This document shows positions 2,089 to 4,119 of a stretch of DNA of 64,000 bases, piece after piece. Numbering within the stretch: the first letter of the stretch is position 1; each line of letters starts with the position of its first letter. Source of the stretch: Hymenobacter sp. CRA2. GTDB taxonomy: Bacteria > Bacteroidota > Bacteroidia > Cytophagales > Hymenobacteraceae. The stretch lies in NCBI RefSeq assembly GCF_002007105.1, contig NZ_MVBC01000005.1, forward strand, positions 186,001-250,000, given 5' to 3'. A program made the position numbers and the translations under genes. The notes under the pieces were generated by a model, which was given only the letters and a program-made list of their open reading frames with translations, had not been told where the DNA came from and did no database searches.

Positions 2089-2544
2089 ATGCCAATGTCT
2101 GCTAAACTCCAACTCCACGCCCTCTGCCTCACCTTCGTTGAGCAGCGCATGGCTACTTGCCAGGCCGCCATCAACGCCGCGCAGGAATCGGCCAACTCCG
2201 AAACCAAGAGCAGCGCCGGCGACAAGTACGAAACCGGCCGCGCCATGGCCCAGAACGAGCGGGACCGAAACGCCGTGCAGCTCCACGAAGCCAAGCAGCT
2301 GCTCGGCGAGCTGCAGCGCATCGACCCGGCTCGGGACTGCGACGCCGTGCGGCCGGGCGCGCTGGTCACCACCAGCATGGGGCGGTTTTACGTCAGCATC
2401 AGCGCCGGCAAGCTCACGGTCGACGGCGTGGATTACTTCGCTGTATCGGCCGCGGCGCCGGTGGCGCAGGCACTGAGCGGCAAGCGCGCCGGCGAGTCGG
2501 CTACGTTCAACGGTAAGCCGGTTCGGATAGAAGCCGTGGCCTGA
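2089..2544 (+). CDS. GreA/GreB-like protein
   Basis: About 151 residues. The N-terminal part is a helical hairpin (AAINAAQESANSETKSSAGD) followed by a second long helix (NERDRNAVQLHEAKQLLGEL). The C-terminal part is a small beta domain (PGALVTTSMGRFYVSI). This resembles the coiled coil plus FKBP-like domain of GreA/GreB transcript-cleavage factors, which act through the RNA polymerase secondary channel. Similar short Bacteroidota proteins are sometimes labelled 3-oxoacyl-ACP synthase, which the sequence does not support. ATG codons at 2089 and 2095 are equally plausible starts; a TTG at 2071 overlaps the previous stop. It may be only Gre-like and not a true cleavage factor. Confidence 0.65.
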   Translation: MPMSAKLQLHALCLTFVEQRMATCQAAINAAQESANSETKSSAGDKYETGRAMAQNERDRNAVQLHEAKQLLGELQRIDPARDCDAVRPGALVTTSMGRFYVSISAGKLTVDGVDYFAVSAAAPVAQALSGKRAGESATFNGKPVRIEAVA

Positions 2545-2566: not shown

Positions 2567-2704
2567 GTGGCAAACCCTACCGCGAGCTATTCAGGCACAT
2601 ACGAGGCGGTAGGGACCCTACCGGGATGTTTTCACTTCGATAGGCCGTGGTAGGAACCCTACCAGCTGCGCTACAATTCAGGATGCCCCGGTAGGAGCGC
2701 GCCG
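2567..2704. repeat. 41-bp-periodic array of short palindromes
   Basis: Two near-identical 15-bp palindromes, GGTAGGGACCCTACC at 2608-2622 and GGTAGGAACCCTACC at 2649-2663, lie exactly 41 bp apart. The right half-site CCCTACC recurs 41 bp upstream (2575-2581). The left half-site GGTAGG recurs 41 bp downstream (2690-2695). The result is three 41-bp units with fixed borders and unrelated ~26-bp interiors, apart from ATTCAGG shared by units 1 and 3. The array lies between the GreA-like gene and the dxr promoter. Forty-one bp is about four helical turns, so the sites share one DNA face. The function is unknown. Confidence 0.7.
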
Positions 2705-2739: not shown

Positions 2740-2767
2740 TTGCCTCGCCCGAAGCCTCTTACCTTTG
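2740..2767 (+). promoter_or_regulatory. putative dxr promoter
   Basis: TTG at 2740-2742 and TACCTTTG at 2760-2767 match the Bacteroidota -33 (TTTG) and -7 (TAnnTTTG) boxes. The 17-nt spacing is slightly shorter than usual. Transcription would start about 35 nt before the dxr ATG. Confidence 0.5.
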
Positions 2768-2808: not shown

Positions 2809-3975
2809 ATGACTCCTTCTCCTGCTCGCTCCCTGGCCCTGCTGGGCTCCACCGGCTCCATCGGCACCCAAACGCTGGACGTGGTACGCGCCCACCCCGG
2901 CCGTTTCCGCGTGGCGGTGCTCACCGCCCAGCGCAGCGCCGATTTGCTGGTGATGCAGGCCCGCGAGTTCCGGCCCGCCGTGGTGGTCATCGGCGACGAG
3001 GCCCAGTACGCGGGCGTGAAAGCGGCCCTGGCTGGTCAGCCCGAAACCACCGTCATGGCGGGCGCCGCGGCCCTGGCCGAAGCCGCCGCCCGCCCCGACG
3101 TGGACATGGTGCTGACCGCGCTGGTGGGCTACGCCGGGCTGCTGCCAACCATTGCGGCCCTGAAGGCCGGCAAAGCCATTGCCCTGGCCAATAAGGAAAC
3201 GCTGGTGGTGGCTGGGCAGCTCGTCACCACGCTGGCCCGGCAGTCCGGTTCGGCCATTTACCCCGTCGACTCCGAGCACTCCGCCATTTTCCAGTGCCTG
3301 GTAGGGGAGGAGCCCGATGCAGTAGAGAAAATCATCCTGACGGCCTCAGGCGGACCCTTCCGCGGCCGCTCCGTGCAGGAACTGGCCCAAGTGACGAGGG
3401 CGCAGGCCCTGAAGCACCCCAACTGGGAAATGGGCGCCAAAATCACCATCGACTCGGCCTCCCTGATGAATAAGGGCCTCGAAGTCATTGAGGCCAAGTG
3501 GCTGTTTGGGCTGACAGATGACCAGATTGAGGTGGTGGTGCACCCGCAGAGCATCATTCACTCCCTGGTGCAGTTCCGTGACGGCTCCCTGAAGGCCCAG
3601 CTCGGCCTGCCCGACATGAAGCTGCCCATCCAGTACGCGCTGGGCTACCCCGAGCGCCTGCCCAACGACTTCCCGCGCTTCAGCTTCCTCGATTACCCCA
3701 CGCTGACGTTCGAAAAGCCAGACGGCGACACTTTCCGCAACCTGCCGCTGGCCTTCGAAGCCATGCGCCGCGGCGGCAACGCGCCCTGCGTGCTCAACGC
3801 GGCCAACGAAATTGCGGTGGCCGCTTTTCTACGCGAGCAGATCGGCTTTCTGCAGCTGCCCGAAGTGGTCGAGAATTGCCTCAGCCGGGTTTCGTACCTT
3901 GCCGAACCCTCGCTCGACGACTACGTGCAAACCGATGCGGAAACCCGCCGGGTAGCTGCGGAGTTGGTAAAATGA
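2809..3975 (+). CDS. dxr: 1-deoxy-D-xylulose 5-phosphate reductoisomerase
   Basis: Converts 1-deoxy-D-xylulose 5-phosphate to 2-C-methyl-D-erythritol 4-phosphate with NADPH, the first committed step of the MEP isoprenoid pathway. The N-terminal Rossmann motif LLGSTGSIGTQTLDVV binds NADPH. ALANKETLVVAG, YPVDSEHSAIFQCL and MGAKITIDSASLMNKGLEVIEA are the family's catalytic and metal-binding blocks; NKGLEVIEA carries the metal-binding Glu. The frame extends upstream to 2722, but the ATG at 2809 gives the standard N-terminus and 388 residues, the usual length, and lies just downstream of a TAnnTTTG box. rseP follows in the same direction after a palindromic spacer, a common dxr-rseP order. Confidence 0.97.
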   Translation: MTPSPARSLALLGSTGSIGTQTLDVVRAHPGRFRVAVLTAQRSADLLVMQAREFRPAVVVIGDEAQYAGVKAALAGQPETTVMAGAAALAEAAARPDVDMVLTALVGYAGLLPTIAALKAGKAIALANKETLVVAGQLVTTLARQSGSAIYPVDSEHSAIFQCLVGEEPDAVEKIILTASGGPFRGRSVQELAQVTRAQALKHPNWEMGAKITIDSASLMNKGLEVIEAKWLFGLTDDQIEVVVHPQSIIHSLVQFRDGSLKAQLGLPDMKLPIQYALGYPERLPNDFPRFSFLDYPTLTFEKPDGDTFRNLPLAFEAMRRGGNAPCVLNAANEIAVAAFLREQIGFLQLPEVVENCLSRVSYLAEPSLDDYVQTDAETRRVAAELVK

Positions 3976-3994: not shown

Positions 3995-4119
3995 TGTCAT
4001 CCTGAGCACAGCGAAGCGAAGGTCGACGTAGTCAAGGACCTTCTCAAGCTGGAACGACTGGCGTTGGGTAATTGCTATCTAACGTGATAAGGTCCTTCGG
4101 CTCCCGCCTCAGGATGACA
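3995..4119. repeat. intergenic inverted-repeat element
   Basis: A 12-bp arm TGTCATCCTGAG (3995-4006) is mirrored exactly by CTCAGGATGACA (4108-4119). Inside, AAGGACCTT (4034-4042) faces AAGGTCCTT (4089-4097). The words AAGGACCTTCTCA and AGGATGAC recur in the element near 63,760-63,839, so both probably belong to one dispersed palindromic family. It separates dxr from rseP. Confidence 0.6.

Follow-up and report, generated by a model that had tools for sequence, protein, structure and literature searches.

Organization of the array upstream of dxr

The window analyzed here is a 64,000-nt stretch of Hymenobacter sp. CRA2 (NZ_MVBC01000005.1, positions 186,001-250,000). It carries dxr on the plus strand (2809..3975; Pfam DXP_reductoisom, DXP_redisom_C and DXPR_C), preceded on the same strand by a small gene (2095..2544) that the initial annotation called gre-like and that has no Pfam match at E<=0.001. 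An array of palindromes occupies 2576-2695 in the gap between the two genes, and 64 bp downstream of it TACCTTTG (2760..2767, plus strand) forms a putative -7 box of dxr; the Bacteroidetes promoter consensus is TAnnTTTG. Just 3' of dxr, at 3995-4119, the inverted ends TGTCATCCTGAG and CTCAGGATGACA lie 101 nt apart and may represent a small dispersed inverted-repeat element.

The half-sites from which the array was first recognized are where they had been placed, CCCTACC at 2575, 2616 and 2657 and GGTAGG at 2608, 2649 and 2690, with a spacing of exactly 41 bp. They had been combined into two full 15-bp palindromes and two incomplete outer sites. Setting related arrays in 41-bp lines revealed a different repeating unit, a 38-bp imperfect palindrome of the form CCTACC-N26-GGTAGG followed by a 3-bp linker. 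The window array comprises three such units and two linkers: unit 1 (2576..2613), the linker GAC (2614..2616), unit 2 (2617..2654), the linker AAC (2655..2657) and unit 3 (2658..2695). The 15-bp palindromes are present, but as arm-linker-arm junctions rather than as the repeating unit, the first (2608..2622) joining the 3' arm of unit 1 to the 5' arm of unit 2 and the second (2649..2663) joining units 2 and 3 in the same way; like the linkers, they carry no strand. The two outer half-sites are simply the ends of the array, and related arrays likewise open with a 5' arm and close with a 3' arm. By the family consensus the three units read on the minus strand, with a small margin. Model R2 gives unit 1 28.8 bits on the minus and 27.2 on the plus strand, unit 2 34.8 bits on the minus strand and unit 3 38.3 bits (E 6e-7 in the window), and model R3 matches the dimer at 2617-2695 with E 5e-10, the training sets of both models containing the window array.

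The interiors are diverged, as had been noted in arguing against a simple tandem duplication, but they are not unrelated spacers, being partly palindromic and resembling the interiors of other arrays, in which a core near AAAACCAATYGKTTT, itself a dyad, is common. The window array scores lowest among the eight arrays compared for interiors, and we therefore regard its own interiors as degenerate. End units are often degenerate in the 41-bp line layout, where the arms are CCTACC/GGTAGG or equivalents. In L070, a 42-bp array of the same genome, linker-centered dyads are better than unit-centered ones, so that both dyad axes matter to the description of an array; L068, also from this genome, differs in this respect.

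The phased array far exceeds chance expectation

With up to one mismatch, GGTAGGNNCCCTACC matches the window four times (two sites, both strands) against 0.11 expected, a count that none of 100 shuffles of the window reached. Across the whole genome, the paired 41-bp-spaced pattern (<=3 mismatches) produced four forward matches that fall in two arrays only, the one at C11:327760-327897 and that of the window; its reversed control produced none. Single 15-bp sites (<=2 mismatches) show no genome-wide enrichment (57 and 64 versus 92 and 83 for the reversed control), and it is therefore the phased array that constitutes the special feature. Tandem Repeats Finder and a second repeat search of the window returned no 41-bp array, the units being too diverged, and a sequence-agnostic scan for palindrome chains was too noisy for use. 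The phased palindrome array is real and stands far above chance.

A repeat family of Hymenobacter relatives with variable arms and a fixed period

Conservation in close relatives, on which the initial annotation had staked the feature, was borne out, as both the half-sites and their 41-bp phase recur. The strict GGTAGG pattern (<=3 mismatches) was found in 2 of 118 relatives and, across the bacterial family, in 4 of 204 genomes, with none in the reversed control. An exact scan of species genomes gave six stretches, one each in H. glacieicola and H. pini and two each in H. gummosus and Actinomycetospora, and viral contigs scanned gave none. The Actinomycetospora stretches were rejected as family members; they carry another motif, CGTAGGNNNCCTACG, twice at 41 bp with no further units. 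In each of two Actinomycetospora genomes (L034:5258-5313 and L038:6167-6222) the two sites are possibly an operator pair. R1, a covariance model of two units, detected arrays at E<=0.01 in 22 of the 204 family genomes, and the general model R3 did so at E<=0.001 in 16 of 390 genomes sampled from the order. Fifteen of these belong to the same family, and the single one outside it has a marginal match (E 8e-4), at chance level for 390 genomes; these large scans used stricter filters, under which weak matches are lost. Three R3-positive genomes (G043, G118 and G120) are absent from the 22 of R1. All three models were trained on these arrays, so their scores on training arrays are no independent evidence.

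The genome of the window itself holds five arrays (C41, C11 twice, C43 and C45) with about 22 units by hand count, and the two-unit model may miss isolated diverged units there. We tabulated 36 arrays with 181 units, namely two arrays of three units, four of four, 21 of five and nine of six, all with a period of 41 or 42 bp, the latter in several arrays of the window's genus; the tabulation was made by hand with fixed periods, which favors in-phase arrays. The irregular or short L082, L089, L093, L097, L099 and L101 were omitted from it and from the unit folding, complementarity and unit-pair comparisons described below, L082, L097 and L099 being added back for the gene-placement count, and L100 was omitted from array complementarity, half-swap folding and consensus-strand wobble counts. 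Several loci are orthologous (the nrdA-side locus accounts for nine records), so the counts are not independent. The arms differ between arrays and stay complementary: besides CCTACC/GGTAGG we found CCTCAC/GTGAGG, CCTCCC/GGGAGG and CCCATGAG/CTCATGGG. In the open-access literature searched, we found no description of such arrays in Hymenobacter or Cytophagales. We regard the arrays as a genuine repeat family; its general kind is known, and its strict phase is unusual.

The arrays are extragenic: none of the 39 examined for placement lies inside a predicted gene, and one overlaps a gene end by 8 bp. Among the 37 arrays with two neighbors, 22 occupy tandem, 8 convergent and 7 divergent gaps, the other two lying at contig or locus edges; neighbors were called by a self-trained codon score blind to RNA genes and to AT-rich ones, and in some cases the true nearest neighbor is therefore missed, and two of the eight convergent arrays (L088 and L095) share one locus by their alignable flanks. 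This mix fits neither a promoter operator nor a 3'-end element. The neighborhoods include dxr, msrB (SelR), RodA/FtsW, the gap between a UvrD/PcrA helicase and a glycosyltransferase gene and, at another locus, RNase P RNA beside a sigma-54 response regulator.

Retention, pace of change and the question of a protein lattice

The nrdA-side locus allows arrays to be compared across species. An array is present in nine records; eight of the nine stretches include nrdA (the exception being H. gummosus), and eight include a shared small gene (the exception being G061), which suggests retention across many species. In five species the six-unit array is 91% identical with no indel in 243 bp, the 61-bp spacer from array to gene is 90% identical, also without indels, and the fourfold sites of the neighboring gene are 90% identical (averaged over 10 pairs; disruption of the gene in two species leaves fewer than 30 sites in some of them). 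Substitution in the array thus proceeds near the synonymous pace. The right flank beyond the array is not alignable, its identity falling from 49% to 37%. The small gene itself (L074:3291-3989 and L086:4000-4698; family unassigned) is broken past roughly codon 90 in G158 and interrupted by an in-frame stop in G135; judging by these reading frames, it is apparently undergoing decay in some of the species.

Over 17 array pairs, at identities of 47-84%, we counted 14 gap openings in 3153 aligned bp versus 100 in 4713 bp of flank, with overlapping pairs and many flanks that are barely homologous. These counts suggest that array length is more rigid than neutrality predicts, which makes constraint a lead and no proof. 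The initial proposal of a dimeric protein binding cooperatively to one face of the DNA can be extended along these lines: a dimeric, probably nucleoid-type protein would occupy alternating linker- and core-centered dyads and form a one-face lattice. The dyads lie 20.5-21 bp apart, which corresponds to two helical turns, and the 41- and 42-bp periods both amount to about four; indels are rare in the arrays, 161 of 175 R2 matches are exactly 38 long, and the arms are homogeneous within an array. However, arms differ between arrays of one genome, so that one sequence-specific protein cannot read them all, homogenization alone could keep the period, and the fixed-period tabulation itself selects for phase. 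We consider such a lattice possible but unlikely. A related idea, to which we would give similarly little credence, is that the arrays represent a novel type of DNA element locked in phase, to which a dimeric chromosome-organizing protein would bind as a lattice, reading helical phase and dyad shape more than sequence, with template switching keeping each array self-complementary as its sequence drifts.

Pairing is array-wide, with selection on an RNA hairpin not supported

The window array had also been proposed to be a chain of small RNA hairpins, and folding is indeed strong. Units fold below mononucleotide shuffles (MFE mean z -2.66, n=177; 60% below -2), and the window array has a fold z of -2.79 against dinucleotide shuffles. 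The predicted fold of the window array is not a simple chain, as unit 1 forms one hairpin and units 2 and 3 then fold jointly about the second linker palindrome. Covariation across 79 dimers reached 0.310, compared with 0.122 ± 0.008 for shuffled and 0.067-0.117 for slid controls, and a terminator-like match, made up of the first linker palindrome and its downstream bases, lies at 2607-2623 on the plus strand, where 0.4 are expected in shuffles. These features speak for a chain of hairpins in a transcript, which would act through mRNA stability, processing, termination or as an sRNA.

The details of pairing point elsewhere. RNAalifold recovered no consensus pairs from 33 units, and further pair types were no higher than in shuffles (320/500 in one set and 143/500 in the dimer set). 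Complementarity is 0.627 within units, 0.618-0.634 between units of one array and 0.518 between arrays. The outer eight pairs match slightly better within their own unit than expected for the array (1023 versus 992 ± 10, 5/2000), and positions 7-12 pair worse there (450 versus 473). We detected no unit-specific stability, since a unit's own halves fold no better than chimeras with halves swapped from the same array. In a five-species comparison, 22 changes altered just one member of a Watson-Crick pair, 16 of them abolishing pairing and six leading to G-T; nine other changes gained a Watson-Crick pair and no double change occurred. Without the copied unit 5 of G160 described below, there are 18 one-sided changes (15 losing pairing, three to G-T) and seven gains.

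Wobble pairs give a mixed picture. In 21 tandem arrays read on the transcribed strand, there are 157 G-T against 113 A-C (14 arrays versus 4), which favors an RNA, but by independent locus the excess is confined to 6 of 11. With the family consensus strand as reference, the counts are 167 G-T and 287 A-C, which we leave uninterpreted, the consensus itself being asymmetric. At columns 4-36, 5-35, 46-77 and 47-76, the arm pairs that switch most, C-G and A-T replace one another with few G-T states, whereas columns 7-33 and 49-74 hold many. Against Rfam, the window array had no match at E<=1, and eight array loci gave only an RNase P at the gathering cut-off.

Pairing is array-wide, halves are exchangeable and recent changes break pairs; the self-complementarity therefore belongs to the whole array, and we do not take the covariation to prove RNA hairpins. 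The data give no support for selection acting on any particular RNA hairpin. A functional hairpin chain in the transcript is accordingly an improbable explanation, more so than a protein lattice.

Tests of a link to dxr and to transposases

The main idea of the initial annotation was an operator array controlling dxr, and the array does lie upstream of this gene and of its putative -7 box. We detected dxr in 26 of 28 relatives. All eight of the eight congeners carry the TACCTTTG box, 45-60 bp ahead of the matched dxr start, and six of them have the same small gene upstream. An R3 array was found at only one of the 18 dxr loci searched out of the 26, the window's own, and the dxr gap of the seven other congeners has no array; the dxr array is thus specific to the window's species. 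Because the box is kept in congeners, the promoter would work without an array elsewhere, and from this comparison of gaps the array appears to be an addition to it. Sister arrays stand beside unrelated genes (msrB, UvrD/PcrA and the glycosyltransferase, RNase P RNA, the sigma-54 regulator), and operators would be expected at promoters and not in the convergent gaps where 8 of 37 arrays lie. On present evidence the array is probably not a dxr switch, and control of dxr by an operator array is very unlikely.

The presence of an array varies at the pcrA|glycosyltransferase gap, for which 12 relatives were searched and 11 compared. G160 has a 5-unit and G141 a 6-unit array there, G184 and G201 have short gaps, G061 has about one unit plus other hairpins, and G158 and G046 have a longer unrelated stretch; in G165, G179, G135 and G173 the locus has a different neighbor. 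No target duplication was recognized at this gap in the 11 relatives, and no transposition event was seen among the compared loci. Mobilization as REP elements by a RAYT/Y1 transposase is the other explanation that we consider highly improbable: the units are extragenic palindromes as small as REPs, Y1 genes are widespread in the bacterial family (145 of 204 genomes) and a Y1-type gene lies at L081:2792-3136 (G028), some 0.8 kb away from the array beside the sigma-54 regulator, but the window's genome (G000) has no PF01797 match at E<=1e-5, the arrays carry no unpaired GTAG tag, and Y1 genes occur in 14 of 22 array-bearing versus 131 of 182 other genomes, which is no positive association (PF01797 covers all Y1 transposases without distinguishing RAYTs, and the 22 genomes are those of R1, with H. 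gummosus outside). A RAYT/Y1 transposase seems not to be needed for the arrays today, and present-day dependence on one is unlikely.

Template switching as the likely origin of array self-complementarity

The explanation that we favor, and hold to be more probable than not, is that the array is a REP/BIME-like, lineage-specific extragenic tandem quasi-palindrome, shaped by template switching, which would be largely neutral or of general chromosomal use and would not be a dedicated dxr regulator. It builds on direct observations, namely the anatomy and distribution of the arrays, their placement blind to gene direction, arms that are homogeneous array-wide, inverted copies of units, and the absence of arrays from the dxr gap of congeners. 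The inverted copies are most explicit at G160, in which unit 5 is the reverse complement of its own unit 3 over 24 of 24 leading bases, and is inverted relative to unit 3 of the other four species over 22-23 of 24. Among 375 unit pairs, 14 match clearly better inverted (in 9 of 36 arrays) and 41 clearly better direct.

In the proposed mechanism, units would fold back as DNA hairpins during replication, slippage would alter unit number, and template switching between inverted arms would homogenize the arms and flip units, with the result that base pairs seem to covary without selection on RNA. Template switching would account for arms that change in concert, for flipped units and for C-G/A-T switches with few G-T states, the many G-T states at columns 7-33 and 49-74 being an exception. 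Two studies describe template switching between inverted repeats that homogenizes arms and inverts the spacer (PMC8604942) and template switching that makes multibase compensatory changes in one event (PMC8794818). Arm homogenization, spacer inversion and multibase compensatory changes would be shared between those systems and the arrays, although the two studies concern coding DNA of yeast and RNA genes, whereas here the process is proposed for bacterial intergenic arrays.

Significance and comparison with known systems

These arrays represent a repeat family whose sequence differs between loci although its period and self-complementarity are constant, and they offer a natural test of template switching on inverted repeats. 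They also carry a warning, that strong covariation is possible without a functional RNA, and they remove a likely false lead on dxr regulation.

The regular repeat spacing recalls CRISPR. The judgment that the array is not a normal CRISPR array is supported by the interiors, which share a core across units and species and are related, partly palindromic sequences, in contrast to unique spacers; the shared part is limited to arms of 6-8 bp. BOX elements of pneumococcus contain a variable number of tandem hairpin units (boxB repeats) between genes, and by this general description the arrays resemble them as tandem intergenic hairpin units, although we did not notice boxA/boxC-like ends. The F-plasmid centromere sopC consists of 43-bp tandem repeats, each with a 16-bp palindrome. 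Again by general description, the arrays share with it tandem units of about four helical turns that each hold a short palindrome, but they occur at several chromosomal-type loci and their units are diverged.

A second dispersed hairpin repeat, of the GTAGCGCGAACT..AGTTCGCGCTAC type with a GTAG end, was observed at L076:3648-3740 and in dozens of places in Hymenobacter relatives, including many places of G061, G158, G160 and G179, and adjoins array units at the pcrA locus in G160 and G061. This repeat looks like a true REP family.

A close counterpart of the arrays themselves is REP/BIME, small extragenic palindromes known in GTAG- and CGTC-tagged families (PMC3733652). As characterized there, these are 20-40 bp extragenic hairpin palindromes that are sometimes clustered or in tandem, a description that the 38-bp units of the arrays match. 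REP copy number exceeds 100 per genome according to another report (PMC2817692), whereas the window's genome has only those roughly 22 units in five arrays. In contrast to the unpaired GTAG/CGTC end tag described for REPs (PMC3733652), the GTAG of the window array lies inside a paired arm, and many arrays have GAGG arms. The RAYT association of REP/BIME also has no parallel in the host genome, with its lack of a Y1 match. The arrays also differ from REP/BIME in their strict head-to-tail 41/42-bp phase and in arms that vary by array.
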